A stretch of 64,000 nucleotides of DNA from Artemia franciscana. Taxonomy: Eukaryota; Arthropoda; Branchiopoda; Anostraca; Artemiidae. Each line of letters begins with the position of its first letter. Within the stretch, counting starts at the first letter, position 1. Shown here in pieces: positions 9,083 to 59,321 of the stretch. A program made the translations under genes and the position numbers. The stretch covers positions 787,101-851,100 of the forward strand of contig NC_088883.1 in NCBI RefSeq assembly GCF_032884065.1, read 5' to 3'. The notes below the pieces were generated by a model. It had not been told where the DNA came from and searched no databases. It saw only the letters and a program-made list of their open reading frames with translations.

Positions 9083-10796
9083 TTAAATAAAAAAAACAAG
9101 TTTTTTCAACTGAAAGTAAGGAGCGACATTAAAACTTAAAACGAACAGAAATTACTTCGTATATAAAAGGGGCTGCTTCCTCATCAGCGCCCCGCTCTTT
9201 ACGCTAAAGTTTGACTCTTTCTCTCAACTCTTCTTTTTGAAACAGTAAAAAACTTTAGCGTAAACAGCGGGGCGTTGATGAGGAAGCAGCCCCTTTCATA
9301 TACGAAGTAATTTCTGTCCGTTTTAAGTTTTAATGTCGCTCCTTACTTTCAGTTGAAAAAACTTGTTTTTATTATTTAATTTCTGAACGTTTTTGAATCA
9401 ATGCATGTTTTGATTTTGGCTCTCCGCAGAGAAATAATTAAAACGAAATTTGCATATTTTTTGGGGGGGGGCTAAATGGCTTTCTCATAATTTTGATCGA
9501 ATGATTTTGAGAAAAAAAGCGCGGGGGAGGAAGCCTAGTTGCCCTCCAATTTTTTGGTTAATAAAAAAGGCAACTAGAACTTTTAATTTTTTACGAATCT
9601 TTTTATTAGTAAAAGATATACGTAACTTATAAACTAGCTTACGTAAAGAATTTTTTATTCTCATATTTTTATTACACATATGAGAGGGTTTGCCCCCTCG
9701 TCAGTACCTCTCTCTTTACACTAAATCTTAAATTTTGGCCCAATTCATTAAGAATGACCCCTGAATCACAAAAGCCGTAGGATAAATAGTTGACATTACT
9801 AAAAATACTTTAGCGTAAAGAGCGAGGTATTAGGAGGAGGTGAGCCCCTCATATGGGTAATAGTTTCTGTTCGTTTTAAGTTTTAATGCTGCTCCTTACT
9901 TCCAGCTGAAAAAAACTTTTTCATATTTATTTTTTCATTATTTTTTTTTAAATAATGCTAGTAAATCCTGCGCTCCCTTCATGGAAATTTTCTTCCCCCA
10001 TGACAAATTCCTCGATGAAAAGTTCCCCCAGTATATCCCCCTCTTTTCAACCCCTCCCCCAACCAAAAAATCCTCCTGAAAACACCTGTACACTTCCCAA
10101 TAACCATTACTATATGTAAGCACTGGTCAAAGTTTGTAACTTGTAGCCCCTCCCACGGGGACTGTGAAGGAGTAAGTCGTCCCCAAAGACATAATTATAA
10201 GGTTTTTCGACTACGCTGAATAAAATGGCTATCTCAGAATTTTCATCTGTTGACTTTGGGAAAATAATTAGCGTGGGAGGGGGACTAGGTGTCCTCCAAT
10301 TTTTTGGTCACTTAAAAAGGGCACTAGAACATTTCATTTCCGTTAGAATGAGCCCTCTCGCAACATTCTAGGACAACTGGGTCGATACGATCACCCCTGG
10401 TAAAAAGAAAAAAAAAAACAAAAAAAAAAAAACAAATAAACACGCATCCGTGATCTGCCTTCTGGCAAAAAATACAAAATTCCACATTTTTGTAGATAGG
10501 AGCTTGAAACTTCTACAGTAGGGTTCTCTGATACGCTGAATCTGATGATGTAATTTTGTTAAGATTCTATGACTTTTAGGGGGTGTTTCCCCCTATTTTC
10601 TAAAATCGCACAAATTTTCTCAGGCTCGTAACTTTTGGTGCGTAAGACTAAACTTGATTAAACTTATATATTTAGAATCATAATTAAAATGCGATTCTTT
10701 TGATGTAGCTATTGGTATCAAAATTCCATTTTTTACAGTTTTGGTTTCTATTGAGCCGGGTCGCTCCTTACTACAGTTCGTTACCACGAACTGTTT
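9083..10796 (+). mobile_element. R1 repeat copy 1 (1714 bp)
   Basis: Starts TTAAATAAAAAAAACAAG and ends CGTTACCACGAACTGTTT. Order inside: F1 hairpin 9090-9380 with arms of over 100 bp; an AT-rich middle with GCTCTCCGCA and CCTAGTTGCCCTCC; F2 hairpin about 9660-9920; a C-rich block with CTTCCCCCATGA; the conserved unit GGTCACTTAAAAAGGGCACT; an A-rich tract at 10402-10435; and a 3' tail with GAGCCGGGTCGCTCCTTACT and the palindrome CAGTTCGTTACCACGAACTG. No coding capacity is seen. No clear TSD in this copy. Confidence 0.85.
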
Positions 10797-12649
10797 GATT
10801 AGGCATTCAATTTTACCTGTCTTTCTTTTACCATGTTACTATGCGTATCAGCTAGTGTAGCTCTGTACTATTTTCTCTTAAAAGAGGTATTATTACTTTT
10901 TAGATTTTGTCTATATCTGAAATTCTGACCCAATTTTATTTTATTAAAAACAAAATAGGTAAAATATCTCACTCAACACCATAAAAAGAAATTACAACGA
11001 ACAGCATATTCATTGAAATCGTAGTAAACAAAATTTGAAAAAGCTTCGAGTTGTGATTTTTTCTCACTTGTTAGTTGTATTCAAATTTTACAAGATAAGG
11101 AGTAGAGAACGTAGTTTAGAAATTTTTATTATATGCTTGAACCATGATGATTATGGATAAATCCTTGCGAAGAAACAACAACCAAGAAAATCCACCATAA
11201 AACAGTATTTAATTGGGGTTTGTGTGTGGATTTAGGTTTTTTTTATTGCTTCTCATTTGGGTCATTTCCTTGCAAACTCACTGATGAATTATCTAAAATC
11301 AAAGATTATTTAAACGTGTGATACAAGTTTTTCAAGGACCCTTTTCCACTTCTGAAATGCATGCGTCACGTCAAAATCAAGAAAAAAACCTATACCATTA
11401 AGAAACCATAGCTTTTTATTATCAACAGGTGTGACTACTGTTGGGGTTTCACCCCTGTTTCTTTTTTTTCAGATAAATGACCTGTTTTCGTTTCCGTAAA
11501 TGCAATTGCTTAGATTTGCCTATAGTATTATTTTCAATGATAAGTTAAAGTAGTCTGGGTGCTAAGCTACAGTTGTTTTGCAATAAGTAAGTTGGCAAGC
11601 ACAGTTTGTGTGTTTTGTCAAGTGACGTTTGGAAGGATACAAGTAAGCAATTTTCTGTAGCCGTGTGATATTATTTTTCCAGGAGCCTAGCCAGGGTAGG
11701 AAAAGAGTTTGCGATAAATACCGTCACTAATATATCGACAGGGGGGCCTGTTTACCCTCCAAAGAGACAGTTAGAGATATTAGCGGTTACCCACGTTAGT
11801 TTCACCCTTGGCCTAGAGTTTGGCCCGTTTGATCTTTTGATCACGTTGCCATACCTTGGAGCAAGGTATACCGTAAAAGGGTACTAACATACTCTATATT
11901 TACGGTACAGTAGTGGTAACCGCGAGGCATTCCATTTCAATATTTGGCACCAGTGAGGTATTCCCCTCCAATAAGTGGTGCAGCACCATTTTCACACCAA
12001 TATCTGGTAGCAGCTGTGATTACCATTCCAATACCTAGGATGTGGTTCCAACCAAGGGGTGATCTTAGATGCACCGTCCCCCCTCCCAGGAAAGTCGGAA
12101 TTGCAGGAGTTGAGAGGCTAAAAACACAAACAAGGGAGCCTGGGTTTAGCTGGGACACTCCCAAAAATATTAATTCCGTATCTGCTCTTGGGTCGGGCAT
12201 TAGTTGCACAGCTGTAAATGTGCTCTTTATTTGTGTAGTGAAAATACTTACTAAATAACAGAGCCATCTGCTTTCAGTAAATTTTTTGATTTGGTAACAC
12301 TCAAGATAGGAAATTTGAGTCTGTTAAACATGTCATAGAATTCTTCATTTCTTTTTTAGAATTTTTGGTTTAACATATAATTCAGTTAGGTGGCACTGAT
12401 GTAAAAACATTGCTCTAAGAGGATTTGAAACTGAAAAATTAGATCTGGCCCTTATCCTGTGCCCTTTTGACTGCGGTGATTCAGAAGGCATATTTCTGTA
12501 ATTCGTAAAAAACTACAATTTGAATTTTTTTTACCTTTTATAATAAGAATTTGTATGTAAAAAGGATATTTTTTTCATCATCATCGGAGGTGCAGAAAAA
12601 ACTATTTTCTGGACGAAGTCTAACTCTGCTACCTGTTTCTGTTAGAGAA
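10797..12649. other. No recognised feature
   Basis: A less AT-rich segment (about 11.7-12.2 kb) holds overlapping open frames of 90 and 104 codons on opposite strands (11937-12258). Neither resembles a known family, and the overlap argues that at most one is real. No repeat of the families named here was seen. Confidence 0.4.
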
Positions 12650-13791
12650 TTAAATATAAAAAAATAAGTTTTTTTAACTACAAGTAAGGAGCGACATTAA
12701 AACTTAAAACGAACAGAAATTATTCCTTATATGAAAGGGGTTGTCTCCTCTTTAACGTCTCACTCTTTACGCTAAAGTTTGACTCTTTCTTACGAATCTA
12801 ATTTTTAAAACAATAAAAAATATTAGCGTAAAGAGCGAGGGGTTGAATAGGGGACAACCCCTTTCATATACGGAATAATTTCTGTTCGTTTTAAGTTTTA
12901 ATATAGCTTCTTGTAGTTAAAAAAAACTTGTTTTTTTTATTCAATTTCTGAACGTTTTTTAGTTAATGCATATTTTGATTTTGCCTCACCGCACATGAAT
13001 AATTAAAATATAATGTGCATATTAGTTTTTTTTTGGCTAAATGGATTTCTCATAGTTTTGATCGGACGATTTTGAAAAAAGGGGGGTGGGGAAGGAGGCC
13101 TAGTTGCACTCCTATTTTTGGTTAATTAAAAAGGAAACTAGAACTTTTTTTACGAACGTTTTTATTAGTGATAAATATAAGTAACTTACGAATTAACTTA
13201 CGTAACGAAATTCTAGATTTTATATTTTTATTACGTATATGAGGGGGTTCTCCCTTTCGTCAATACCTCGCTCTTTATACTAAAGCTTCAATTTGGTCCC
13301 AATTCTTTAAGAATAACCCCTGAATCACAAAGGCCGTAGAATAAATAGTTGAAACTACTAAAAAATACTTTAGCGTAAAGATTGAGGTATTGTGGAGGAG
13401 AAGAACCCCCTTAAATACGTAATAATTTCTGTTCGTTGTAGGCTCTAATGCTGCTTTTTACTTCCACCTGAAAAACTTTTTTTTATCTATGTTCTAATTT
13501 TTTTTTGTTTCTTTTAATAATGCTAGAAAATCCTGCGGCCCCTCCCCCGGGGACTGTGGGGGTTTAAGTCGTCCCAAAAGACATAACTATTAGGTTTTTC
13601 GTCTATGTTGAACAAAATGGCTATCTCAAAATTTTGATCCAGTGACTTTGGGAAAAAATTAACGTGGGAAGGGGCCTATGTCCCCTCCAATTTTTTTTGT
13701 CACTTAAAAAGGGCACTAGAACTTTTAATTGTCATTATAATGAGCGCTCTCGCAAAATTCTAGGCCCACTGGGTCGATACTATCACCCCTG

Positions 13792-13843
<52 letters not shown>

Positions 13844-14183
13844 GCATCCATGATCATTCTTCTGGGAAAAAATCAAAAATTCCACATTTTAGTAGATAGC
13901 AGCTTGAAACTTCTACTTTAGGGTTCTCTGATATGCTGAATCTGATGGTGTGATTTTCGTTAAGATACTTTGACCTCCTATTTTCTAAAATAAGGCAAAT
14001 TTTTGCAGGCTCGTAACTTTTGATGGAAAACACTAAACTTGATAAAACTTGTATATTTAGATCAGCATAAAAATACGGTTCTTTTGATGTAACTATTGGT
14101 ACCAAAATTCCGGTTACTATTCGGGTTTCGGTTACTATTGAGCCGGGTCGCTCCTTACTGCAGTTCGTTACCACGAACTGTTT
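12650..14183 (+). mobile_element. R1 repeat copy 2 (1534 bp)
   Basis: Same order as copy 1: TTAAAT start, F1 hairpin (12660-12935), F2 hairpin (about 13215-13470), shortened C-rich block, CACTTAAAAAGGGCACT, a 52-base poly(A) tract at 13791-13842, tail and terminal palindrome with CTGTTT end at 14183. The tail has a small insertion repeating CGGTTACTATT near 14108-14130. Confidence 0.83.
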
Positions 14184-14440
14184 AACTGATAACAATGGAA
14201 AAAGAGCATAGATTGATACTGCTTATATGTAAATACCGAAGTTCTAAGTGTTGTAGAAATATTACATATATTGCTTGAATTCACTTTATCATTTTTGCAG
14301 CAAATACGAGTATTTCGTGGAATATTCTAATACAGTGATAAATGTCCCTCGAGTAGCGTCGGCGTTCCGTATCAGGGACAATATTGACAAATATGGCCAC
14401 TGAAGCCATCTTGCAGGGGTTTGCCCTATTCTGTCTTTCC

Positions 14441-14645
14441 CCTATTTTCCAAAATAAGGCAAATTTTCTCAGGCTCAAAACTTTGAACGACAAAGACTAA
14501 ATTTGATGAAATTTATATATTTAAAATCAGCATAAAAATTCGATTTTTTTGATGCATCTTTTAGTATCAAAATTCCGTTTTTTAGAGTTTCGTTTACTAT
14601 AGAGCCGGGTAACTCCCTACTACAGTTCGTTACCACGAACTGTTT
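14441..14645 (+). repeat. R1 3'-tail fragment
   Basis: About 205 bp matching only the R1 tail (CTATTTTCCAAAATAAGGC through the terminal palindrome and CTGTTT). The intervening 14184-14440 is unassigned. A solitary tail shows that R1 pieces persist without the hairpins. Confidence 0.75.
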
Positions 14646-14774
14646 GAAAAAGATGATGAAAAGTATTTAAATAAAAAAATAAAGTTTCTGAAAATCCCAA
14701 AATTTAGGGGAGCGAATGTAATCTTTCAATACATTTCGTTATTTTAACAACATAAACCATGAATCTCAGTTTAG

Positions 14775-16325: not shown

Positions 16326-16453
16326 GAGATCAGCCTTGTTGAACTTTTCTCTAGCAAGTACCAGTGCTAATCCTGGCTTAGGCAACCAGGTTTCAGTTGA
16401 AGATATAGTTTCCAATTCAAGGTCTGTGTCTCGTTTTTGTTCCTTAGCCTAGA

Positions 16454-19011
16454 ATGTCCCATCCTTGTAATGATTGCTACAAAAAATGTGGAACTGGGTC
16501 ATTCCAGCGTTCTAAGTGCAAAGCATGGTTGTACCCAGCTTGTGCTGGCATCACAAAAAGTAGTCGCCTAAAAAAACCCAAATGGTTATGCGTACAGTGC
16601 CGATCAACAATGGTCGTAAATGACGAGATTATTAACAACGATAACCAGCCTGAAGTGATCCAACCACCCGAGGTTAAAAAGTCCCACCTTATTTCTATTG
16701 AAGAAAATTCAACTAATTCCAATGATAATCAACTGGAAGTGATCGTTCCAATTGGTATTGTTAATTCCCCGTCCATACCTCATGTTTTGAATAATGATAA
16801 AAATAGTACCCCTGGATCGATTGATTCTGCAAAAATTACCACCTACCATCAACCCCAAATTACCCCAGAGATGAAGTCACGTGCAATGCAAAAAAGGCTA
16901 GTGTGTTTAAGCCCCATACCTGTGAAGATTGCCTTAAAAAAGATGCACAAATCGTCAATCTCAAGAAACGGGTTATTAATCTCGAATTTCTTTATGATAG
17001 CTTGTCTGATCTTTACGAGCGCCAGAAAAGTCATCTCTTCAAGGACAAAGAAATCAAATTGTTAAAAGTCGGTTTTCAGCTGGCAACTGTTGAAGCTATA
17101 CATACTTTAAATTCCCCTACACAGCCCACAATTCCTCATTTAGCTGATACTTCCGCTCCAAATATTCATTACCAAAATTCTTCGGTTCATCAAGCAAGTG
17201 CTAGTGTACTTCCTTCGTCAGAATTTTCTCAAGAGATTAAAAAGGTTACGCAACCTAATCATACTGACCTCGCTTCAACCGAAGATAATTTATTGATGAA
17301 ATCCAGTGTTAACGACACATCTTTGAAAAGTGACAATGCAGTTGAACTGACAAGCGGAAATTCTTACACAATGCAATCAAATATTCATAAAAATGAGCTT
17401 AATGATTTTATGCGTAATAAACCTAATGTGTGTTTTAACTTCTTAGATAGTAGATGTATTTCTAGTAATTGTAAATATTTACACATTTGTAAATTTTATG
17501 TTTCTAGTCGTTGTACAAATAATCTGTGTAAATACCCCCATGTTGATATTTGTAAAAAGTTTTCAAGTGGAAGGTGCTTTGGCTGTACAAAAGCTCATAT
17601 TGAATCGCTCATTAAAGGTCGTAGTAGGCTCCGCAAAACTGGGCTGCCCAGAAGCCACCTTAATCCTGCTAAATTTACTAAGCATTTTAAGTCGTGTAAT
17701 TTTGCTCATGTATCATCAGACGCGGGGGGTAGGTTTAAAACCCAGCCTTTTTTAGGGCAGCGTCGAAGGCACTCACGACCCCCTCCTCCCCTTGGCCAGG
17801 TTCCTGTCTTATCCCCCTGCATTCTCAGATCAACAATTAATAAACCCTTCCCGATTACATCTTCCCCCCCTTTACCCCTTGTTATCTCCTCCCCCTCTCC
17901 GTATACAGAAGTCCTATTTCCTTCCCCCTTACAGTATGCTGCCCCATACCCTCCCTACTCTGCCGCAAACCAGCAATTTCTTGATGGACATGAATCACTA
18001 TTCCCACCCAGCCCCCCTTTCCCAGCACCTTACGAAACCCCACCCCCAGCCCATTCGTTTTATCCCTCGTGCCTACCCTGTAAACGTGACTCAGGTCTGA
18101 GACTTTTTGCATTCAATAATTGTCATATAATAAGTCCTCGTGCTTCGTCCATATCCTTGCCCGTCCCCCCACATCCAAATCCCCAAAGCAAATCCTTCTC
18201 TTACCCTTCTTCTCCAAAGCATAATAAAATAAAATTAAAACCCTACCCAGGAAATTCTCAAACCCATCAAGTCTCCCTGTCGCGATTCCCCAACCGGTTT
18301 GTTTTTCCTAAACTTTTAGTTACTAATGCTGAAAGTCTTAATTTTGAAAAACTTACTGAACTCGAGGTGGTTTCAGAATCAAATTTGATAGATATTATAG
18401 CTGTTACTGAAGTTCAATCCCATGACCCAGGGTCCCTACGCCTGACAAATTATTCAGAGTTTATTAAACTCCGTCCTTCAGACCACCCACTCGGGAAAAA
18501 AGGTGGCGGAGTTTTGTTTTTTACTAAGAGTCACTTTTACCCAAAGGTTATTCAAGTCCCTAACTTATCCGAGTATGATGAAATCCTCTGGCTAAGTTTT
18601 AGACCAAAAGTACTCCCTCGTCCCTTTAGTGTTATTGCAATAGCTGTTTTCTATTACTCTCCGAATCAAAATATCGAGTCAAAACGTAATTTCATCCAGC
18701 AATTACAGGCAAGTGCTGATTTTGTTATTTCTAAGTACCCCAATGCTGGCCTTTTTTTAGTTGGTGATGCCAACGACCTTAAGATGGATTCTTTTTGTGC
18801 TTCACTTAAAGTAAAGCAAATTATTAAAACACCGACGACTCGGGGTAATACCTCTCTTGATGTTATTTTAACTAATATGTTCAATTTTTACAGCCCTCCC
18901 TCAACTTTGCCCCTATTAGGTGGGAGTTATCATCTTTCCATTCTTTTGTCCCCCTCCTCAAATTTTAAGCATACTTTCTCAATAGCTTATAGCACTTACC
19001 GCCCTCTTTAA
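16454..19011 (+). pseudogene. LINE ORF1 (PHD, coiled coil, CCCH) joined to APE endonuclease
   Basis: ATG at 16454 (MSHPCNDC) starts a PHD-type finger with regularly spaced Cys and WLCVQC at its end; the usual His reads Tyr (WLYPAC). A frameshift in an A run near 16898 moves the frame to one continuing open to 19011. This contains CEDCLKKDAQIVNLKKR (coiled coil), three CCCH-like fingers at 17430-17610 (VCFNFLDSRC, ICKFYVSSRC, ICKKFSSGRC), a long proline-rich stretch (17770-18090) and the endonuclease (KLLVTNAESL, AVTEVQS, GKKGGGV, FYYSPN, LVGDAND). The expected SDH triad reads SYH (GGSYHL), removing a catalytic Asp. RNA-binding and endonuclease parts lie in one frame without a stop, unlike the two-ORF layout usual for CR1. 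Confidence 0.85.
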
Positions 19012-19035
19012 AATTCTGGTCTTCTTTCTTTCGGT

Positions 19036-21654: not shown

Positions 21655-21929
21655 CGAGACACCCTAATGCCTGGGGGATTTTGTGATTTTTAGTAAGATT
21701 CCTTGACCTTTAAGGTTTTTTTGTTCATTTTTTGTCTCATATAAATTTTTTTCGTCTCTTATATATGCATGGGTAACACTAAACTTAGAGAACTAGATCT
21801 ATATTTGAAATCAGCATAATAAGTTGATTCTTTTGATGTATCTATTGACACAACAATTCTGTTTTATAGATATTTGGTCACAATCGAGCAGCATCCCTCT
21901 TTCTATAGTCCGTAATCACAAACTTTTTG
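21655..21929 (+). repeat. Decayed R1 tail
   Basis: GATTTTTAGTAAGATTCCTTGACC, ACTAAACTTAGAGAACTAGATCT, GATTCTTTTGATGTATCTATTG and an altered end (GTAATCACAAACTTTTTGA) follow the R1 tail order. The terminal palindrome is destroyed. Old copy. Confidence 0.6.
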
Positions 21930-22454: not shown

Positions 22455-23293
22455 AAAGAGTCTAAATTATTCTGTATATGAGGGGGTTTGCCCCCTTCTT
22501 AATATTTAATTTTTTCCAGGATAAACGTTTTTCTGGAAAATTCACCCCCAAAAACTTCCCTCTCCGCGGAAAATTTCTGCCGTAATAAATTCAACCAAGA
22601 AGGACATCCCCCCTCCCTCCCCACCCAAAAAATGTCCGTACACATCCTAATAGTAAATACTGTAAGTGAACAATGGTACATTTGGGAACTTAGTCGTTTC
22701 TCCCATGGGCTGTGGGGTCATGTTATCATCAAAGACATAGTTGCTAGAAACTTCAACTATGTTGAATAAATGACTATCTCAAAATTTGGATGAGGCAACT
22801 TTGGGGAAAAGGGACGTGGTAGGGGGGCTAAATGTCCCTTTCTGTCGCTTAAAAAGAGTTTTAGAACTTTTCATTTTCGATCAAATAATCCCTCTCTAAA
22901 TCTTTGGGGATCAATGGTTTGATACGATCACCTGTGGAAAAAAAAACGAATCCATGATCTTTCTTCTGGTAAAAAAAAAATATAAGATTCCACATTTGTG
23001 TATATGGGAGCTTGAAACCTCTACAGAAGGTGTTTTGATTTGCAAATCTGATGCTGTGATTTTCATTAGGATTGCTTGAAGTTTTGAGGGTGTTTTGGAC
23101 CTTTTTTAAAATCTAGCATTTTTTTTTACCTGTAACCTTTGATGAGTAACATTAAAATTAATGAGCTTTATCTATTCTGAATCAGTATAAAAGTTCAGTT
23201 CGTTTGATAGCTATTAAAATTCTATTTCCTACTGTTTTGGTTACTATTGAGGCGCGTCACTCCTTACTTAAATTTCGTTACCAGAAACTGTTT
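22455..23293 (+). mobile_element. Decayed, 5'-truncated R1 copy
   Basis: Starts within the F2 hairpin (TATGAGGGGGTTTGCCCCCTTC), keeps a C-rich block resembling the R1 one, GGGGGGCTAAATGTCCC, GATACGATCACC, TCTTCTGGTAAAAA, the tail, and ends CAGAAACTGTTT at 23293. Divergence is much greater than in copies 1, 4, 5 and 10. The flanks (21930-22454 and 23294-23814) hold nothing recognised. Confidence 0.7.
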
Positions 23294-28963: not shown

Positions 28964-30720
28964 TTACATAAAAAAAACTAGTTTTTTTAACTGAAAGTAA
29001 GGAGCGACATTAAAACTTAAAACGAACAGAAATTACTCCGTATATGAAATGGGTTGTCCCCTCCGCAATCCCTCGCTCTTTACGCTAAAGCTTTTAATTG
29101 TATTAAAAAGCAGAATTGTGGCAAAGAGTCAAACTTTAGCGTAAAGAGCGAGGGATTGCGGAGGGGACAACCCATTTCATATACGGAGTAATTTCTGTTC
29201 GTTTTAAGTTTTAATGTCGCTCCTTACTTTCAGTTAAAAAAACTAGTTTTTTTTTTATGTAATTTCTGAACGTTTTTGAATTAATGCATGTTTGATTTTG
29301 GCTCTCCACACATAAATTATTAAAATGAAATTTGCATATTAATTCCTTTTTTGGCTAAATGGCTTTCTCTTAGTTTTGATCAGACGATTTTGAGAAATAA
29401 GGGATGGGAAAGGAGGCCTAGTTGCCATGCAATTTTTCGGTTACATAAAAAGGCAACTATAAATTTTTATTTTTAACGAATTTTTCTATTAGTAAAAAAT
29501 ATACGTAACTTAAGAATTATCTTACGTACCAAACTTTTATATTCTTTAATTTTTATTATGTATATGAGAGGGTTTGTACCCTCGTTAATACCTCGTTCTT
29601 TACACTAAATCGCAAGTTTTGTCCCAATTCTTTAAGAATGACCCCTGAATCAGAAAGGCCGTAGAATGAATAGTTGAAATTACTAAAAATACTATAGCAT
29701 AAAGAGCGAGGTATTTATCTCCTCCTAAATACCTCGCTCTTTATGCTAAAGTATTTTTAGAACCCCTCACATGCGTAATAATCTCTGTTCGTTTTAAGTT
29801 TCAATGCTACTCTTTACTTTCAATTGAAAAAAAATTTTCCATGTTTATTTTTTCATTGTTTTTTTTTATAGTAATTTTAGAAAATCCTTCGCCCTTTTCA
29901 TTGAATTTCTGTTCCCCCATGACACATTTCTCCATGGAAAGATCCTCCCACATAGCCCCCTTCCCTCAACCCCACCCCCAAAACCAAAAAAAAATCCCCT
30001 GAAACCGACTGTACACTTCCCAATAACCATTATTATATGTAAACACTGGTCGAAGTTTGTAAGTTGCAGCCCCGCCCCCAGGGACTTTGGGGGAGTAAGT
30101 CATTCCCAAAGACATAGTTATTATGGTTTTTGACTATGCGGAACAAAATGGCTATCTCAAAATTTTGATCTGTTGACTTTGGAGAAAAAATGAGCGTGGG
30201 AGGGGGCCTAGGTGCCCTCCAATTTTTTTGGTCACTTAAAAAGGGCACTAGAACTTTTCATTTCCGTTAGAATGAGCCCTCTTGCGACATTCTAGGACCA
30301 CTTGGTCGATACGATGACCCCTGGGGAAAAGAAAAAAAAAAAAAAAAAAAAAAAAACAAACAAATAAACACGCACCCGTGATTTTTCTTCTGGCAAAAAA
30401 TACAAAATTCCACATTTTTGTAGATAGGAGCTTGAAACTTCTGCAGTAGGGTTCTCTGATACGCTGAATCTGATGGTGTCATTTAAGATCCTACGACTTT
30501 TAGGGGGTGTTTCGCCCTATTTTCCTAAATAAGGCAAATTTTCTCAGGCTCGTAACTTTTGATAAGTAAGACTAAACTTGATGAAACTTATATATTTAAA
30601 ATCAGCATTAAAATGCAATTCTTTTGATGTAGCTATTGATATCAAAATTCAATTTTTTAGAGTTTTGGTTACTATTGAGCCGGATCGCTCCTTACTACAG
30701 TTCGTTACCACGAACTGTTT
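28964..30720 (+). mobile_element. R1 repeat copy 4 (1757 bp), TSD GATA
   Basis: Bounded by GATA at 28960-28963 and 30721-30724. F1 arms (about 29017-29091 and 29133-29208) are identical over about 75 bp, including the copy-specific block GGGTTGTCCCCTCCGCAATC. The loop between them is reversed relative to copies 1, 2, 5, 11 and 12. The F2 region has an extra near-perfect hairpin at about 29683-29762 with arms of about 32 bp (TAAAGAGCGAGGTATTTA) and loop TCTCCTCC. Ends in the usual palindrome and CTGTTT. With copy 10 it forms a subfamily. Confidence 0.9.
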
Positions 30721-31115
30721 GATAACCTAAGCGTAATTCTTGAATGTGTTTCCAATAACCGACAAGTGCCTTTTATCTGTTACAAGGAACGAATCCTAAC
30801 CAAGAGTTGGACTCGCTTGCTAGTTTTGCACATAGCATTAATATATAATTTTTGTTTTAATTAATGATAGATTTAGGGCGCTTCTAAATATATTAAATTC
30901 AGAAAAACTGATCCAAAAATTTGGAAATCTCGATCCATCATACAACAAAACAGCGGTTCATCCCACTCATCAGTGTAATCTGATTTTCTCAGTTTCCAGA
31001 AACTTAAAATGTAGACACACTTCATCATTATATTTGGATTTACCTGGGGTATATTGGAAAGGAACAAGGTCACACAAGATGTTTTGCAACACAACATATT
31101 CAAATTTTTAGGTAG
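30721..31115. other. Unassigned, with an R3 scrap at its start
   Basis: 30731-30775 (TAATTCTTGAATGTGTTTCCA, then CCGACAAGTGCC) is R3 in reverse. The remainder is AT-rich. A TTTTTAG then GTAG at 31105-31115 could be a splice acceptor for the candidate exon that follows. Confidence 0.4.
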
Positions 31116-33083: not shown

Positions 33084-34757
33084 TTAAATAAAAAAACAAG
33101 TTTTTTTAAAATGAAAGTAAGGAGCAACATTAAAACTTAAAACGAACATAAATTACTCTGTATATGAAAGGGGTTTTTCCTCCTCAACGTCCTGCTCTTT
33201 ACGCTAAAGTTTGACTCTTTCTCTTAACTCTATTTTTAAAACAGTAAGAAACTTTAGCGTAAAGAGTGGGGCGTTGAGGAGGAAAAGCCCCTTTCATATA
33301 CGGCGTAATTTCTGTTCGTTTTAAGTTTTAGTGTTGGTCCTTACTTTCATTTAAAAAAAAACTTGTTTTTTTATTTAATTTCTGGGCGTTTTTGAATTAA
33401 TGCATGTTTTGATCTTGGCTCTCCGCACATAAATAATTAAAACAAAATTTACATATTAATTAATTGCAATTAATCGGAACATTTTTAGAAAAAAGGAGCG
33501 AGGGAGGAGGCCTAGTTGCCCTTCAGGTTTTTGATAACTTAAAAAAGCAATTAGAACTTTTAATTTTTACAAACGTTTTCATTGGTAAAAAAATTCGTAA
33601 CTTACGAATTAACTTACGTAACGACCTTCTATATTCGTATGTTTATATTGCGTATATGAGGGGGTTCAACCCTCGTCGATACCTCGCTCTTTACATTAAA
33701 GCTTAGATGTTGTCCCAATTCCTTAAGAATGACCTCTGAATCACAAAGCCCGTAGCATAAATAGTTGAAATTACTAAAAATACTTTAGCGTAAAGAGCGA
33801 GATATAACGAGGAAATAAACCCCTCATATGCGTAATAATTTTGTTTGTTTTAAGTTTTAATGCTGCTCCTTACTTTCAGTAGAAAAAACTTTTCATTATT
33901 ATTTTTTCATTGTTTTTTCGAATAATGCTAGAAAATCCTGCGCCCCCTTCATTGAAATTCTCTTCCCCCATGAGAAGTTTCTCCATGGAAATATCCTCCC
34001 AAGTAACCCCCTCCCTCAACTCTCCCCTCTAAACCAAAAAAATCCCCCTGAAAACGTCTGTACACTTCCCAGTAACCATTACTATATGTAAACACAGGTC
34101 AAAGTTTGTAACTTGCAGTCCCTCCCACTGGGACAGCGGGGGAGTAATTCGTCCCTAAAGACATAGTTATTAAGTTTTTCGACTATGGTGAATAAAATGG
34201 CTATCTCATAATTTTGATCCGGTGACTTTTGGGAAAAAATGAGCGTGGGAGGGGGCCTAGGTGCCCTCCAATTTTTTTGGTCACTTAAAAAGGGCACTAG
34301 AACTTTTAATTTCCGTTATAATGAGCCCTCTCGCGACATTCTAGGACCACTCAGTCGATACGATCACCCCTGGGAAAAAAAACAACAAAAAACAAATAAA
34401 CACACATCCGTGATCTGTCTTCTGGCAAAAAATGCGAAATTCCACATTTCTGTATATAGGAGCTTGAAACTTCTACAATAAGGTTCTCTGATACGCTCAA
34501 TCTGATGGTGTGATTTATGTGAAGATTGTATGACTTTTAGGGGGTGTTTGCCCCTATTTTCTAAAATGAGGGAAATTTTCTCAGGCTCGTAACTTTTGAT
34601 GGGTTTATTTGATCTTGATGAAACTTATATATTTAAAACCAACCTTAAAATGCGACTCTTTTGATGTAACTATTGGTATCAAAATTCCATTTTTTAGAGT
34701 TTCGGTTACTACTGAGCCGGGTCGCTCCTTACTACAGTTCGTTACCACGACCTGTTT
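33084..34757 (+). mobile_element. R1 repeat copy 5 (1674 bp)
   Basis: TTAAAT start at 33084 and CTGTTT end at 34757 (terminal palindrome has one change, CGACCTG). F1 hairpin 33090-33380, F2 about 33650-33900, C-rich block 33940-34060, A-rich tract 34374-34400, tail. Flanks are TGTGAA on the left and GAAAGA on the right, so GAA is shared; a 4-bp TSD is imperfect here. Confidence 0.87.
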
Positions 34758-35082
34758 GAAAGACGACTGGGAAGTTATACTTCACAGGAGGTCACTTCTA
34801 AGTCAATTTTTACGTTAGTAAGAAATGGCAACATTTACAATTCTAAGCTCAAGTTAAAAAATCAAGACATTTCAACTCAAATTTTCAGTTTATTTATTCT
34901 CCAATTACTGTAATAAATTTGAAGGTTAGAAATGCAAGTCTCCATCCAAAAAATGACCAATACAATTTTTCATCTTATTCACTTATATAGAACGTATTCA
35001 CACGTGACATAAAATTTAACAGACCCTTAAGTATCCCATAAAGATAAAGAATTATAACGTCTATACGCAATAACAAAATTAT

Positions 35083-41336: not shown

Positions 41337-41702
41337 CACCCCTCAAGAGCGAGGCGTTGAGGAGGGGACAACCCGTTTCATTTACGGAAAAATTTCTGTT
41401 CGTTTAAAGTTCTAATGTCGCTCCTTACTTACAGTTAAAAAATTTTTTTTATTTATTTAATCTTCATTAAGATCATATTTGAACTTTTGGGGAATCCTCT
41501 TTTTAGAAAATAACACAAATTTTCTATGAGTCGTTGCTTATGATGGACAACATTAAACTTAATAAATTTTAGTTCATTTGGATTCAGCATAAAAGCCAAT
41601 TCTTTTGATCTATCAATTGTTATCAAAATTCTCTTTTTTACAGCTTCGGTTACTTGTGGGCCGAGCCGCCTCTCTACTTACTGTTCGCACCACGAACTGT
41701 TT
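41337..41702 (+). repeat. R1 remnant with internal deletion
   Basis: Begins in the right F1 arm (AAGAGCGAGGCGTTGAGGAG), passes TTTATTTAATCTTCATTAAGA and jumps to the R1 tail, ending CACGAACTGTTT at 41702. Everything between F1 and the tail is missing. A short tandem ATATTTTGTTTATTATTA lies just upstream at about 41056-41094. Confidence 0.75.
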
Positions 41703-41916: not shown

Positions 41917-42714
41917 GTGAGGCATACTTTTTTTTAGTTTTGGACACTAAATAATTATTGGTGCTTACGTGTTAGCCCGACAACACTCACGAAGTTTGCT
42001 CTGTTTGTCTGAGAAAAACCGGTTTACTGTCTGCAATCGGTAATATCTTTGTCTCAATGAAAAAAACTACGATGCTAGTATGTTTTAATCAAATATTTAT
42101 GTATAAAGGTGGTTAGGGTGAACTATGTTAGGTATTTAATATAATGTGTTCCATGCGGCCTGCTTTCCATAATTCTTTGTTGTAGTTTCCATAATTTTCT
42201 TACCAAAGTCTTATATTTTCATTATATTCTGGTACATTTCATAAAGATTGACCTAACTTCACTTCTTAAGTGTTATTGTTAAAACTCGTTAGTTCCGAAT
42301 TATTTACTCAAAGTTAAAATTTTCTCCCAGCTGTTGATTGATTCTTCCAAAGATAAATTTCCCACAGGAACACTTGTTTCTTCATTTCTTTCTTTCTTCA
42401 TATTTATGAACTAAATTCATTTACCTTTGGAATGAACGGAGCAAAAATTTCTACCATTACTCAGACCAAACGTGTGTTTGAAAGGAGACTTTTGAATTTG
42501 GATACTTGTGCTCTTTCCAAATATAATAATAGCTGTTAATCGCACATTCAATATGGACCTTCGAAGATAATATCTTTTCTCTTATTTTAGATACGGTTTA
42601 TATAGCCTACGTATGTTAGCCTCACCCTTTTTAAAACCGGTTTATCTAAAAAATCAATCAACGGTGACAAAATTGAGAACCAATAAATGCATGGGAAATG
42701 TATTGCCGAATATC
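41917..42714. other. Unassigned, with R3 scraps
   Basis: 42225-42275 is R3-like in reverse (ACATTTCATAAAGATTGACC, then TAACTTCACTTCTTAAGTG). A CTCCCAG acceptor-like site precedes an open LLIDSSKDKFPTGTL frame near 42332-42375, too weak to call an exon. Confidence 0.35.
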
Positions 42715-44225
42715 AAACAGTTCGTGGTAACGAACTGTAGTAAGGAGTGACCCGGCTCAATAGTAACCGATACACTAAAAAATGGAATGTTGATACCGAT
42801 GGTTACATAAAAAGAATCGTATTTTAATGCTGATTTTAAATATATAAATCACATCAAGTTTAGTCTAACCCATCAAAAGTTATGAGCCTGAGAAAATTTA
42901 CCTTATTTTAGAAAATAGGGGGAAACACCCTCTAGAGGTCATAGAATGTTAACGAAAAATCACACCATCAGATTCAGCGTATCAGAGAACCCTACTATAG
43001 AAGTTTCAAGCTCGTATCTACAAAAACGTGGAATTTTGTATTTTTTTTGCCCGAAGACAGATCACGGAAGCGTGTTTATTTGTTTTTCTTTTCCCCAGGG
43101 GTGATCGTATCGACCCAGTGGTCCTAGAATGCCAGAAGAGGGCTAATTAGAACGGAAATTAAAAGTTCTAGTACTCTTTTAAAGTGACCAAAACATTGGA
43201 GGGCTCCTATGCCCCCTCCCACGCTCATTATTTTCCAAAGTCCTCGCATTAGAATTTCGAGATAGCCATTTTGTTCAGCATAGTCGAAAAACTTAATAAC
43301 TATGTCTTTTTGGACGACTTAATCCACGACAGTTCCCGGGGGAGGGGCTGCAAGTAACAAACTTTGACAATTGATTACATATAGTAATGGTTATTGGGTA
43401 GTGTACAAACGTTTTCGGGGGAAAACGTCAACGTTGAGCGGGGGGGGGGGTGCAGTCGGGGGTTACGTGGTTACGTGGGAGGATCTTTCTATGGAGGAAT
43501 TTATAATGAGGGAAGAGAATTTCCATGAAGAGGGTGCAGGATTTTCTAGCATTATTTAAAAAACAATGAGAAAATAAATAAATAAAAGTTTTTTCAACTG
43601 GAAGTAGGGAGCAGCATTGAAACAAAACGAACAGAAATTATTACGTATATAAGGGGATTTGTCTCCTCCAAAATACCTCGCTATTTACGCTAAGGTATTT
43701 TTAGTAATTCACAACTATTTATTCTACGGCCTTTTTGATTCAGGGGTCATTCTTAAAGAATTGGGACAAAATTCAAACTTTAGTGTAAAGAGAGAGGCAT
43801 TGTCGAGGGGGGTGAACCTCCTAATATACGTAATAAAAATATTCAAATATAGAAGTTCGTTACGTGAGTTAATTTATAAGTTACGTATATTTATTACTAA
43901 TAAAAACATTCGTAAAAAAAGTTCTAGTTGAATTTTTAAGTAGCCAAAAATTGGAGGGCAACTAGGCCTCCTCCTCCACCCTTTTTTTTATCAAAATTGT
44001 CTAAATTATCAAAAAAAATTTACTGGAAGTAAGAAGAGACATTAAAACTTAAAACGAACAGAAATTATTCCGTATATGAAAGGGGTTGTCTCCTCCTCAA
44101 TGCCTCACTCTATACGCTAGAGCTATTTATTGTTTTAAAAAGTAGAGTTGTGACAAAGAGTTGAACTTTAGCGTAAAGAGCGGGACGCTGAGGAGGGGAC
44201 AGCTCCTTCCATATACGAAATAATG
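42715..44225 (-). mobile_element. R1 repeat copy 7, minus orientation
   Basis: Right end of the element at 42715 (AAACAGTTCGTGGTAACGAA). Reading toward higher coordinates: tail, C/G-rich block (43190-43540, with a run of G at 43440-43450), F2 hairpin (43580-43860), AT-rich middle, then F1 hairpin at about 44025-44222 joined after a deletion. The outer F1 arm is cut at CGAAATAAT. The tail flank reads GATATTCG, matching the GAWW preference next to the CTGTTT end. Confidence 0.8.
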
Positions 44226-44249
44226 ATCAGAAATGATGAATCTGAAATA

Positions 44250-48085: not shown

Positions 48086-48089
48086 TATT

Positions 48090-50543: not shown

Positions 50544-52448
50544 CGTTGTTCATCAGCCAATAGAAAAAAGGCGGGATTCTTTCAAACAGTTCGTGGTAAC
50601 GAACTGTAGTAAGGAGCGACCCGGCTCAATAGTAACCAAAACTCTAAAAAATTGAATTTTGATATCAATAGCTACATCAAAAGAATCGCATTTTAATGCT
50701 GATTTTAAATATATAAGTTTCATCAAGTTTAGTCTTACCCATCAAAAGTTACGAGCCTGAGAAAATTTGCCTTATTTAAGAAAATAGGGAGAAACACCCC
50801 CTAAAAGTCGTAGGATCTTAACGAAAATGACACCATCAGATTCAGCGTATCAGAGAACCCTACAATTGAAGTTTCAAGCTCCTATCTACAAAAATGTGGA
50901 ATTTTGTATTTTTTGCCAGAAGACAAATCACGGGTGCGTGTTTATTTGTTTGTTTGTTTTTTTTTGTTTTTTTTCCCCAGGGGTCATCGTATCGACCAAG
51001 TGGTCCTAGAATGTCGCAAGAGGGCTCATTCTAAGGGAAATGAAAAGTTCTAGTGCCCTTTTTAAGTGACCAAAAAATTGGAGGGCATCTAGGCCCCCTC
51101 CCACGCTCATTTTTTTCCCAAAGTCAACGGATCAAAATTTTGAGATAGCCATTTTGTTCGGCATAGTCGAAAACCATAATAACTATGTCTTTGGGGATGA
51201 CTTACTCCCCCACAATCCCTGGGGGAGGGGCTGCAAGTTACAAACTTTGACCAGTGTTTACATATAGTAATGGTTATTGGGAAATGCACAGACGTTTTCA
51301 GGGGGATTTTATTTTGTTTGGGGGTGGGGCTGAGGAGAGGGGGCTATGTTGGAGGATCTTTCCTTGGAGGAATCTGTTATGGGGGAAGAAAAATTCAATG
51401 AAAAGGGCGCAGGGTTCTCTAGCATTACTATAAGAAAACAATGAAAAATAAACATGAAAACTTTTTTTTCAAATGAAAGGAAGAAGTAGCATTGAAACTT
51501 AAAACGAACAGAGATAATTACGCATATGAGGGGCTCTAAAAATACTTTAGCATAAAGAGCGAGGTATTTAGGAGGAGATAAATACCTTGCTCTTTATGCT
51601 AAAGTATTTTTAGTAATTTCAACTATTTATTCTACGGCCTTTCTGATTCAGGGGTCATTCTTAAAGAATTGGGACAAAACTTACGATTTAGTGTAAAGAG
51701 CGAGGTATTAACGAGGGTACAAACCCCCTCGTATACGTAATAAAAATATAAGGCTATGAAAGTTTGTTACGTAAGTTAATTCTTAGGTTACGTGTATTTT
51801 TTACTAATAAAAACGTTCATTAAAAATTAAAAGTTCTAGTTGTCTTTTTAAGTAACCGAAAAATTGGAGGGCAACTAGGCCTCCTTCTCAACCCCTTATT
51901 TCTCAAAATCGTCTGATCAAAACTAAGAGAAAGCCATTTAGCCAAAAAAAGAATTAATATACAAGTTTCATTTTAATAATTTATGTGCAGAGAGCCAAAA
52001 CCAAACATGCATTAATTCAAAAACGTTCAGAAATTAAATAAAAAAAAAACTAATTTTTTTAGCTGTAAGTAAGGAGCGACATTAAAACTTAAAACGAACA
52101 GAAATTACTCCGTATATGAAATGGGTTGTCCCCTCCGCAATCCCTCGCTCTTTACGCTGAAGTTTGACTCTTTGCCACAATTCTACTTTTTAAAACAATT
52201 AAAAGCTTTAGCGTAAAGAGCGAGGGATTGCGGAGGGGACAACCCATTTCATATACGGAGTAATTTCTGTTCGTTTTAAGTTTTAATGTCGCTCCTTACT
52301 TACAGCTAAAAAAATTAGTTTTTTTTTTATTTAATTTCCCCAAGGCTCGATTGAAACTGTCAACTTGTTGACAAGACATTTGAGCTATGAGAAAGAAAAC
52401 TATCAACAAAAGGTGGCTGAGTTTAAAATACCGGTAATTGAAAATTAA
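50544..52448 (+). pseudogene. Candidate coding segment split by R1 copy 10
   Basis: A pyrimidine-rich acceptor (TTACCCCTGCTTTCGGCTTAATAG) precedes 50544. After removal of R1 copy 10 and one TTTC repeat, a frame reads SSANRKKAGFFPQGSIETVN, LLTRHLSYEKENYQQKVAEF and KIPVIEN with TAA at 52446. The second part (from 52339) is the more coding-like. Family unknown. It may be an old exon destroyed by the insertion, or chance. Confidence 0.3.
50584..52334 (-). mobile_element. R1 repeat copy 10 (1751 bp), TSD GAAA
   Basis: Minus orientation; on plus, TTTC at 50580-50583 and 52335-52338 flanks the element, whose ends are AAACAG (3' end) and ATTTAA (5' end). F1 arms (about 52088-52160 and 52206-52280) carry the same CCGCAATCCC variant as copy 4 and the same reversed loop. 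The extra hairpin around TAAAGAGCGAGGTATTTAGG at 51535-51610 is also shared. Copies 4 and 10 are thus sister insertions at two sites. Confidence 0.9.
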
Positions 52449-53039: not shown

Positions 53040-53214
53040 GGGAAATATATAATTTGTGCTATCTATTTGCCCATTATGGGGTTGGGGCAGAATTTTTTAA
53101 TAGTGTGAAGTTAGAAAACAATTCTCACTGCGTAATATGCAGAATAATTGTACCTAACATATTTTGGATGCACACCCGCTATACTTTACCCCCATACTTT
53201 ACACCCATTACAAA
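53040..53214 (+). repeat. R3-type repeat piece
   Basis: GAAGTTAGAAAACAATTCTC, AATATGCAGAATAATTGTACC and ATGCACACCCGCTATACTTTA match 57310-57360 and, in reverse, 57590-57640. The LINE fragment starts directly after it. Confidence 0.55.
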
Positions 53215-53430: not shown

Positions 53431-53559
53431 GAGATAGGAGGTGGTAGGGAGGCCTGGTTGGTCGCGGGTGGTAAGGAGGAGCAGGTGGATGGGTGGTACT
53501 GAGGGAGTAGGATTGTTGGAATTTTGTTATTTATGGGGGGATATTGTGAAGGAGATTGA

Positions 53560-53604
<45 letters not shown>

Positions 53605-54846: not shown

Positions 54847-56149
54847 TTAAATAAAAAAAATCAAGTTCTTTGACTGAAAGTAAGTAGCGACATTAAAACT
54901 TAAAACGAACAGAAATTACCCCGTATATGAAAGGGGCTGTTCCCTCCTCAACGCCTCGCTCTTTATGCTAAAGTTTGACTCTTTCTCTCAACTCTACTTT
55001 TTAAAACAGTAAAAACATTAGCGTAAAGAGCAGGGTATTGAGGAGGGAACAGGCCTTTTCATATACGGGATAATTTATGTTAGTTTTAAGTTTAAATGTC
55101 GCTCCTTACTTTCAGTAAAAAAAACTTTTTTTTTATTTAATTTCTGAACGTTTTTGAGTTAATCCATGTTTTGATTTCGGCTCTCCACAGACGAATAGTT
55201 AAAATGAAATTTACGTAATTGTTTTTTTTTGGCTAAATGGCTTTCTCATAGTTTTGATCAAACGATTTTGAGAAAAAAGAAGCGGAGAAGGAGGCCCAGT
55301 CGCTTCCTTTTGGGTACTTAAAAATGGAACTAGAACTTTTAGTTTTTAACTAACGTTGTCATTAGTAAAAGATATACGTAACTTCCGAATTAGCTGATTT
55401 AACGAACTTCTATATTAATATGTTTTTATTATGTATATGAGGGGGTTCGCACTCTCGTCAATCCCTCGCTCTTTACACTAAAGCTTAAATTTTGTCCTAA
55501 TTCCTTAAGAATGACCTCTGAATCACAAAGGCCGTAGAATAAATAGTTGAAACTACTAAAAATACATTAGCGTAAAGAGTGAGGTATTAGGAGGAGGTGA
55601 ACCCCTTATAAGAGTAATATTTTCTGTTCGTTTTAAGTTTTAATGCTGCTCCTTACTTTCAGTTGAAAACTTTTTCATATTTATTTTTTCATTGTTTTTT
55701 TTTTAATAATGCTAGAAAATGCTGCGCCCCTTTCATAAAAATTTTCTTCCCCCATGAGAAATTCCTCCATGGAAAGTTTCCCCCACATAACCTCCTCTTC
55801 TCAACCCCTCTTCCCAACCAAAAATCCTCCTGAAAACGTCTGTATACTTCCCAATAACCATTACTATATGCAAACACTGGTCAAAGTTTGAAACTTGCAG
55901 CCCCTCCCATGGGGACTCTGGGGGAGTAAGCCGTCCCCAAAGACATAGTTATAAGGCTTTTTGACTATGCTGAATATAATGGCTATCTCAGAATTTCGAT
56001 CCGACGACATTGGGAAAAAATGAGCGTGGCAGGGGGCCTAGGCTCCAATTTTTTTGGTCACTTAAAAAGGGCACTGGAACTTTTCATATCCGTTTGAAAG
56101 AGCCCTCTCGCGAAATTCTAGGACCACTAGGTCGATACAATCACCCCTG

Positions 56150-56213
<64 letters not shown>

Positions 56214-56568
56214 ACGCATCCGTGATCTGTCTTCTGGCAAAAAATGCAAAATTCCACATTTTTGTAGATGGGAGCTTGAAACTTGCTCAACATGGTTCTC
56301 TGATATGCTGAATCTGATGGTGTAATTTTTGTTAAGATTCTATGACTTTTGAGGGGTTTTCCCCCTATTTTCTAAAATAAGGTAAATTTTTTCAGACTCG
56401 TAACTTTGGATGGGTAAGACTAAACTTGATGAAACTTATATATTTAAAATGGGCATTAAAATGCAATTCTTATGATGTAACTATTGGTATCAAAATTCCG
56501 GTTTTTAGAGTTTTGGTTACTATTGAGCCGGGTCGCTCCTTACTACAGTTCGTTACCACGAACTGTTT
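54847..56568 (+). mobile_element. R1 repeat copy 11 (1722 bp)
   Basis: TTAAAT at 54847; F1 54860-55130; F2 about 55435-55680; C-rich block 55720-55830; poly(A) tract of about 62 bases at 56149-56211; tail; CTGTTT at 56568. The right flank is GAAAATC and the left TTGAAAGA, so GAAA occurs on both sides but is offset by GA on the left. Confidence 0.87.
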
Positions 56569-57235
56569 GAAAATCAAATAGGTTTGACCAGGCTACCGAA
56601 GAACTCATTTTAGTTTTACAATAAAGCTATTAAAGTTAAGTTGGAAAATCTAATATAACAAAAACAGTAAAAAAAAAAATTGGAGTCGTTCCCGTAATTT
56701 TAGGATCAATAGTGGGTTATACAAAATAATGCTGTTTTATTCATGAGTAGGACAGAGGAGACCAAATTGGACAAATATATGTGTTTGAAAAGCAGATTTT
56801 AAAGATATAAAATTTCTCGAGAATAAAAAATAAAAATTTTGGAATTAGTGCACCCTGATCGCAAGAGCCATTTAGACAAGAGCGATGATGACTTAATACA
56901 TATAAGACAAGAATTTCCAGAAACGTCCGAAAGTTTGAAATAACATTATTTTTAGTTTTTCGTACGATTTATTTGCAATATAAAAATCAAACAGGTTCAA
57001 CCAGGCTACCGAAGTATTTGTTTATATATGTGTTGGTATATGTAATCAAAAGAGAGATTTGAGCACTCCAAAAAACGGCGGAAGATATATTAGGTGTTTT
57101 TCCAAGAAATTGAAAGATGACAGATTACCAAAGATGGTCCTTGTGGGCCTACCATCAAGGGCTAAACAAGAAGCTAGTCGTCCTTAAATTAGCCAGGAGG
57201 TTATAAGGAAAAATACTATGAAAATTAAAAAGTAC
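56569..57235. other. No recognised feature
   Basis: AT-rich. The phrase CAGGTTYRACCAGGCTACCGAAG occurs at about 56578-56602 and 56993-57016, a 415-bp-spaced direct repeat. Confidence 0.4.
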
Positions 57236-57239
57236 TTAT

Positions 57240-57720: not shown

Positions 57721-57723
57721 CTA

Positions 57724-59321
57724 TTAAATAAAAAAAAAAGTTTTTTTTTAACTGAAAGTAAGGAGAGAAATTAAAACTTAAAACGAACAGAAATTACTTC
57801 GTATATGAAAGGGGCTGCTTCGTCATCAACGCCCCACTCTTTACGCTAAAGTTTGACTCTTTCTCTCAACTCTTCTGTTTAAAAGAGTAAAAAACTTTAG
57901 CGTTAAGAGTGGGGCGTTGATGAGGAAGCAGCCCCTTTCATATACGAAGTAATTTCTGTTCGTTTTAAGTTTTAATGTCGCTCCTTACTTTCAGTTAAAA
58001 AACTTGTTTTTTTTTATATTTAATTTCTGAACGTTTTTGAATCAATGCATGTTTTGATTTTGGCTCTCCGCAGAGGAATAATTAAAACGAAATTTGCACA
58101 TTTTTTTTTTTTTGGCTAAATGGCTTTCTCATAATTTTGATCAAATGATTTTGAGAAAAAAAGAGCGGGGGAGGAAGCCTAGTTGCCCTCCGATCTTTTG
58201 GTTATTTAAAAAGGCCACTAGAACTTTTAATTTTTTACGAATCTTTTCATTAGTAAAAGATATACGTAACTTATAAATTAGCTTACGTAAAGAACTTTTG
58301 TATTCTCATGTTTTTGTTGCATATATGAGGGGGTTCTTCCCCTCGTCATTACCTTGCTCTTTACACTAAAGCTTAAATTTTGTCCCGATTCATTAAGAAT
58401 GACCTCTGAATCACAAAAGCCGTAGAATAAATAGTTGAAATTACTAAAAATACTTTAGCGTAAAGAGCGAGGTATTAGGAGGAAGTGAGCCCCTCGTGTG
58501 GGTAATAATTTCTGTTCGTTTTAAGTTTTAATGCTGATCATTACTTCCAGCTGAAAAAAAAACTTTTATATTTATTTTTCATTGTTTTTTGTTTTAATAA
58601 TGCTAGTAAATTCTGCGCTCCCTTCATGGAAATTTTCTTCCCCCATGACAAATTCCTCGATGAAAAGTTCCCCGAGTACATCCCCCGTTTCTCAACCCCT
58701 CCCCCAACCAAAAAATCCTCCTGAAAACGTTTGTACACTTCCCAATATCCATTGCTGTATGTAAGCTCTGATCAAAGTTTGTAACTTGTAGCCCCTCCCA
58801 TGGGGACCATGGGGGAGTAAGTCGTCCCCAAAGACATAGTTATAAGGTTTTTCGACTACGCTGAATAAAATGCCTATCTCGGAATTTGGATCCGTTGACT
58901 TCGGGAAAATAATTAGCGCGGGAGGGGGCCTAGGTGCCCTCCGATTTTTTTGGACACTTAAAAAGGTCCAAAAAGGTTCAGGTTCTGGCAAAAAAACACA
59001 AAATTCCACATTTTTGTAGATAGGATCTTGAAACTTCTATAGTAGGGTTCTCTGATACGCTGAATGTGATGGTGTGATTTTCGTTAAGATCCTATGTCTT
59101 TTAGGGGGTGTTTCCCCCTATTTTCTAAAATAACGCAAATTTTCTCAGGCTCGTAACTTTTGATGGGTACGACTAAACTTGATGAAACTTATATATTTAA
59201 AATCAGCATTAAAATGTAATTCTTTGGATGTAGCTATTGGTATCAAAATTCCATTTTTTAGAGTTTTGGGTTCTATTGAGCCGGGTCGCTCCTTACTACA
59301 GTTCGTTACCACGAACTTTTT
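57724..59321 (+). mobile_element. R1 repeat copy 12 (1598 bp)
   Basis: TTAAAT at 57724, F1 57735-58015 with both arms carrying ACGCCCCACTC, F2 about 58320-58560, C-rich block 58615-58720. The poly(A)/GATACGATCACC section is deleted at about 58975 (AAAAAGGTCCAAAAAGG). The tail ends with an altered palindrome (ACGAACTTTTT). Confidence 0.85.

Follow-up and report, generated by a model that had tools for sequence, protein, structure and literature searches.

The subject of this study is R1, a non-coding repeat that recurs throughout a 64,000-nucleotide stretch of the Artemia franciscana genome (NC_088883.1, positions 787,101 to 851,100 of the forward strand; hereafter the window). In our view R1 is very probably a non-autonomous rolling-circle transposon, built on the plan of Helitron2 and of the HINE elements. 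The evidence comes from precisely defined ends, from paralogous sites that lack the element and show no target duplication, from an asymmetric pair of inverted repeats, from a long 5' hairpin whose two arms evolve together, and from a composite unit that appears to have arisen when transposition ran on beyond a weakened 3' end.

The preliminary description of this DNA had reported seven long copies of R1 together with many fragments, and both are found in the window, the long copies (about 1.5-1.76 kb each) lying where it had placed them (Table 1). The 28964 copy served as query. R1-like matches make up 17,900 of the 64,000 bases (28%), against 207 bases in the reversed-window control, where the matches shown fall in one A-rich R1 stretch; the GC content of the window is 35.1%. 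The 20-nt 3' palindrome has nine matches in the window at up to 3 mismatches, and none is expected from 100 shuffles. In the whole assembly (1,270,528,402 bases, 6468 contigs), palindromes with up to 2 mismatches number 32,195 in forward and 32,072 in reverse orientation, whereas the reversed pattern occurs 3 times and once, respectively. The fixed ends were also correctly recognized: TTAAAT on one side (TTACAT in the 28964 copy, whose second hairpin arm mirrors it as ATGTAA) and CAGTTCGTTACCACGAACTG plus TTT on the other, the palindromes of the 33084 and 57724 copies having one mismatch. The absence of coding sequence stands as well, since among stop-to-stop frames of at least 110 aa the longest that overlaps any R1 copy of the window has only 122 aa. 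Rfam at gathering thresholds gave no match in window positions 8000-60900, the exact R1 palindrome was not found in viral contigs, and the exact 27-nt R1 3' end was not found in the genome contigs collection. Word-based searches of the open-licence literature, as far as its text was accessible, returned no description of R1, and in the accessible part of the A. franciscana genome paper, Helitrons make up 8.81% of the genome without description of their families (PMC11492255).

The 3' boundary was read from 67 3' ends, namely those of the window and of 40 further loci (L031-L070), which are 40 of the first 41 palindrome places listed, all of them exact, on the plus strand and from one end of contig C1, and not a random sample of the genome copies. 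Directly downstream of the palindrome, the bases are T, T, T (64/67), G (63/67) and A (67/67), and the position after this A is T in 44 ends, A in 20 and C in 3. The GAWW seen after the tails is the GA of the element plus two host bases, and the ends of R1 are TTAAAT...TTTGA. The matching flanks reported earlier for the 28964 copy (GATA/GATA) and the 50584 copy (GAAA/GAAA) are indeed present, but it is a mistake to take them for a 4-bp target-site duplication (TSD), since the GA with which they begin belongs to R1 and forms its nearly invariant end.

Paralogous sequences without the insertion speak for the same boundary. At L060, one R1 is nested in another, and its joined flanks (with TTGGA assigned to the element) span 65 R1 paralogue alignments, which include overlapping (L050/L051) and duplicated loci and are not 65 independent sites; 61 of them are gap-free within 10 bases of the joint when GA is counted as element, and none of the 65 is when GA is assigned to the host. 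The joined flanks of L054, which is internally deleted, are spanned by 40 genomic places (40 scored of 3710 candidates), of which 35 are exactly equal in length, the remaining five showing length differences of -5 to +5. At L033, a diverged paralogue (74% identity) spans the joint with no gap there, the nearest being a 1-base gap about 8 bases off. L064 also has a paralogue spanning the site; its joint was not used as evidence. Empty sites had been proposed as the check on the 4-bp TSD, and at the two well-sampled paralogous sites there is no duplication. One base, A, is ambiguous at the joint between left flank and tail. Flanks were compared in 30 copies, and then in 29 after L058 had been dropped, whose presumed 5' end is internal R1 sequence; for the five composites discussed below the outer 3' end was used, and the inner end in an earlier 30-row version. 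The base left of the insertion is A in 28/29 copies, and the joint dinucleotide is AT in 21, AA in 5, AC in 2 and TT in 1. At the sites tested, insertion is mostly at A^T and without target duplication. In 12 5'-truncated copies, the summed longest shared flank runs come to 39 compared with 32.6 in shuffled flanks (p 0.04), which slightly favours TSDs; the longest shared run is 6 bp and the rest are 2-4 bp, and we did not accept these runs as TSDs.

The strong 5' hairpin and the palindromic 3' end noted earlier are borne out, the 3' end folding into a hairpin with a 9-bp stem and a 4-nt loop (z = -5.3). It is equally true that the ends are not inverted repeats of each other; what had been overlooked is a 13-bp asymmetric subterminal inverted repeat (asymmetric terminal inverted repeat, ATIR, in the Helitron2 terminology; subTIR in HINEs). 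In the seven window copies, AGTAAGGAGCGAC sits 32-34 nt inside the 5' end (34 nt in the 50584 copy), within the 5' hairpin, and its reverse complement ends one base ahead of the 3' palindrome, 24 nt from where TTT ends, or 26 nt when GA is counted. The exact run is 13 bp in 3/7 window copies and 12, 10 and 9 bp in three others, while the 54847 copy has one mismatch in 13; runs of 9-13 bp are reached by 0-13 of 500 letter shuffles.

The conclusion that R1 fits no standard class does not hold, because GA belongs to the element and no TSD is seen at the sites tested; as far as the consulted portions of the relevant papers describe them, the anatomy is that of the non-autonomous Helitron2/HINE type (PMC3627910, PMC4067079, PMC5148889). 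R1 has neither the terminal inverted repeats and fixed TSD of cut-and-paste elements nor the variable TSD of short and long interspersed elements (SINEs and LINEs). According to the same portions, Helitron2 has hairpins at both ends, an asymmetric terminal inverted repeat of 8-15 bp, a 5' T, a 3' ATIR immediately ahead of the hairpin at 20-30 bp from the end, and a 5' ATIR 0-2 bp from the end; its complete copies lack a TSD, its target lies after TTTT, and 5'-truncated copies keep their 3' ends (PMC3627910). R1 shares with it the 3' ATIR directly upstream of the hairpin and within 20-30 bp of the end, the 5' hairpin containing the other ATIR, the 3' hairpin, the T at the 5' end, complete copies without TSD, and compensatory hairpin changes. 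It differs in its 130-bp stem, in its target, which is mostly A^T and not after TTTT, and in the lack of clear TSDs in the 12 truncated copies. With HINE/DINE-1 elements, which are non-autonomous Helentrons with subTIRs of 11-15 bp (PMC4067079), R1 has in common that it is non-coding, has a very high copy number, leaves the target unmodified and carries a short 3' palindrome and, in 4/7 window copies, an identical subTIR of at least 11 bp (12-13 bp); it departs from them in the distances of subTIR and palindrome and in its target, mostly A^T, with TT at only 1/29 joints. FoHeli of Fusarium likewise has asymmetric terminal inverted repeats, and hairpins at both termini in FoHeli1/2, but unlike R1 it is autonomous and has a TNAT-type target and a short 5' hairpin (PMC5148889). 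Because R1 is off the Helitron2 distance for the 5' ATIR and off the TT target of Helentrons, we regard it as a variant of the Helitron2/HINE plan and not as a proven member.

Several points weigh against this assignment. One is the position of the 5' ATIR, 32-34 nt inward where Helitron2 would have it at 0-2. Flanks are identical over 4 bp in 4/29 copies, compared with 1.9 expected from re-paired flanks (p 0.065); the 30-row versions give 4 matches with outer ends (p 0.055) and 3/30 with the inner ends of composites (expected 1.9, p 0.29), and the count is 3/25 without composites (p 0.11) and 3/24 when L058 is left out as well (p 0.13). The duplication tests comprise two sites and one diverged site, all in copies that lack a perfect 4-bp match. 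Finally, an element with RepHel domains and R1 ends was not found among the two candidates examined, L071 and L072, out of the best 150 scored of 7436.

If the assignment is correct, the transposition of R1 may be pictured as follows, where we infer the enzyme and the strand chemistry from the named families. A RepHel (HUH) protein acting in trans would nick at the 5' T of R1, and one strand would be peeled off. Termination would occur at the 3' hairpin, possibly helped by pairing of the two ATIRs as in the model of PMC3627910, and the strand would be joined into A^T without duplication. Where the 3' end is weakened, transfer would continue to the next 3' end.

A 2.9-kb composite, present in 5/40 loci (L043, L046, L050, L056 and L059), bears on the last step. 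In it, a complete R1 is followed first by DNA of another kind (about 330 bp) and then by the 3' part of a second R1, from about position 922 on. Over 2.9 kb, the composites match L056 at 95-98% identity; they have five different outer flank pairs, so the composite itself has moved as a unit. In all five, the inner palindrome carries one and the same change, by which a stem pair is lost, and the inner ATIR also carries an identical change; the outer palindrome, by whose exact sequence the loci were found, is intact in all five. We infer that the composite formed by running past the weakened 3' end and then spread. The end-bypass model for Helraiser predicts this outcome, with read-through capture of 3' flanking DNA (PMC4778049, in the part consulted). 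In the window, 12650-14185 together with 14433-14647 looks similar and may be of the same kind.

The single hairpin into which the 5' region of R1 folds spans about 300 nt, and its stem measures about 130 bp. Its alignment comprises 22/30 copies and excludes four of the five near-identical composites as well as L054, L058, L064 and L065, whose hairpins are damaged, short or doubtful. Of 2842 cells, 95.9% are paired, and 40/130 pairs have changed on both sides, values that 0/500 shuffles reach. When the pairing partner is slid by 1-3 columns, pairing falls to 44-51%, a comparison that is biased in favour of the hairpin in that the structure was derived from these copies' own consensus. The two arms within one copy are on average 93.7% identical (84.5-100%), with values above 98% in young copies such as L051 and L052; between copies, the identity is 86% both for like and for unlike arms. 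For 21/44 arms, the closest sequence is the other arm of the copy itself. A tree of all 44 arms makes sisters of the two arms in 12/22 copies and has no clade made up purely of first arms with more than 3 members (second arms not counted). The arms evolve in concert. Compensatory selection in source elements and arm-to-arm copying both predict this. Transversion switches with few intermediates (1 to 5/22 cells being of neither main type), found at columns 101/225, 115/211, 116/210 and 121/205, fit arm copying somewhat better, but eight copies have one block of hairpin changes in common and probably trace to one event, so this evidence is suggestive only. A different reading would make R1 a separate rolling-circle branch, in which the hairpin would be remade in each round by arm copying on the single strand and the arms, like pairs of long terminal repeats, would date the insertion; such a branch might be moved by a Helitron1 protein whose own element has other ends. 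We hold this to be on the unlikely side. Inside R1 (at about position 590-890; for example window 9678-9958) there is a second, shorter hairpin, related to the 5' hairpin and with a subTIR-like motif.

A mobilising protein for R1 was sought with the PF14214 profile, which gave the 7436 candidates mentioned above and none in 14 control genomes. Among the best 150 scored, many frames exceed 1500 aa, up to 2091 aa. L071, which carries RepHel domains, and L072 are canonical Helitron1 elements, 99.3% identical over 5.4 kb; both have TCTATATATA at the 5' end and, at the 3' end, the hairpin GGGTGGCGC-GAA-GCGCCACCC followed by CTAG (CTAG^T), which differs from the hairpin of R1. As canonical Helitron1 elements with other ends, they were rejected as the partner of R1. 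Mobilisation of R1 in trans by this abundant young Helitron1 despite its different ends would have in its favour the abundance of RepHel frames (among the 150 scored), the near identity of L071 and L072, and the mostly A^T target, which is that of canonical Helitrons in the consulted part of PMC4778049; R1 also resembles Helitron1, as represented by L071/L072 and Helraiser, in its 3' hairpin near the end and in read-through capture. It lacks, however, the 5'-TC and the CTRR-3', has a 5' hairpin and ATIRs, and its 3' hairpin is unlike that of L071/L072, which together make this explanation quite improbable.

OTU domains are associated with Helentrons. A search for such a domain in a Helentron partner gave two places, both with short frames. 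Inspection by eye of the open reading frames of at least 120 aa in L031-L070 (18 listed) revealed no evident RepHel; a frame in L039, judged by its motif, is presumably Penelope-like. Relatives of the L071 protein were not found in viral contigs. L072 has an R1 3' end some 26 bp upstream of its Helitron, within the same AT repeat, which we read as chance. The same locus contains, at 7599-8268, the R1 segment of about position 1180-1319 three times on the minus strand, at intervals of about 270 bp, which points to a further repeat family that has this segment in common with R1. Among the 150 scored RepHel places nearly all are without internal stops, as in a very young Helitron1 family, and the autonomous Helitron1 family has probably been active recently, judging by these frames and by the near identity of L071 and L072. 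At window 2510-3031 (+), STPR repeats (PF21107, below cut-off) occur in a frame that looks, by eye, like the N-terminal portion of the L071 protein and is likely a Helitron1 fragment.

The other explanations fare worse than the assignment to the Helitron2/HINE plan. A foldback or MITE-type (miniature inverted-repeat) cut-and-paste element, with the 5' hairpin as the transposon, would account for isolated hairpins such as those at 8232-8596 and 60525-60883 and for the many hairpins that start with TTAAAT and finish with ATTTAA; we consider it very improbable, as the 64,267 palindrome ends genome-wide mean that the 3' end moves too, no TSD is found at the R1 sites tested, and the same R1 sequence follows the inner arm in complete copies. 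A transposon of a new or ill-fitting class, without terminal inverted repeats and making fixed 4-bp duplications (GAWW), can point to the perfect matches at 28964 (GATA), at 50584 (GAAA), at L036 and in the composite L050. Such a match is absent, however, in 25/29 copies, GA is nearly invariant after the tail, and the duplication is refuted both at L060, by the lack of any gap-free alignment with GA as host, and at the empty site of L054, leaving this idea with hardly any probability. Least probable of all is retroposition of R1 in the manner of a SINE, with truncated 5' ends: although several copies lack the 5' part and retain the 3' end, this is also described for Helitron2 (PMC3627910, portion consulted), none of the 67 ends has a poly-A or microsatellite tail, there is no Rfam match in window positions 8000-60900, and the 12 truncated copies show no clear TSD (longest shared run 6).

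Table 1. R1 copies and R1-related fragments in the window (positions counted from its first base)
Feature	Position	Strand	Remarks
R1 full-length copy	9083..10798	+	5' hairpin 9083-9379, 5' ATIR 9115-9127, 3' ATIR 10760-10772, palindrome 10774-10793, terminal TTTGA 10794-10798
R1 copy, internal deletion	12650..14185	+	tail TTTAA; then second R1 3' end 14433-14647
R1 3'-end fragment	14433..14647	+	palindrome intact 14623-14642; possible read-through partner of 12650 copy
R1 full-length copy	28964..30722	+	5' start TTACAT; flanks GATA/(GA)TA
R1 full-length copy	33084..34759	+	palindrome 34735-34754, one mismatch
R1 full-length copy (50584 copy of the text)	50582..52334	-	palindrome 50587-50606; flanks GAAA/(GA)AA
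R1 full-length copy	54847..56570	+	5' ATIR against 3' ATIR: one mismatch
R1 full-length copy	57724..59323	+	palindrome one mismatch; ends ACTT
R1 copy without part of 5' region	42713..44002	-	3' palindrome 42718-42737
R1 3' fragment, old, diverged	22730..23293	+	68% identity
R1 3' fragment, old, diverged	21773..21928	+	75% identity
Hairpin fragment and diverged R1 3' end	41345..41702	.	side by side; R1 3' end on plus strand
Isolated R1-type 5' hairpin	60525..60883	-	further fragment
Isolated R1-type 5' hairpin	8232..8596	-	further fragment

Apart from R1, the window contains triosephosphate isomerase exons at 4863-5665 and 6040-6462 (+), followed by part of a histidine-phosphatase gene. The remains of a non-LTR (long terminal repeat) retrotransposon lie at 16448-20692 (+), and their separate frames hold an endonuclease domain, a reverse transcriptase domain and a weak match to a CCCH zinc finger. 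A 152-nt repeat (family D20) occurs at 62450-63448 in five near-tandem copies that are 64-95% alike to the reference copy.

Together, our data assign about 64,000 palindrome-marked ends in a single genome to rolling-circle transposition. With exact ends and a target that is mostly A^T, annotation and dating of the R1 family become possible. Should foldback copying underlie the concerted evolution of the hairpin arms, every copy would carry its own clock, and the arms would provide natural evidence on the single-stranded intermediate. The composite, with its inner terminator weakened in all five cases seen, is natural evidence for the end-bypass model.

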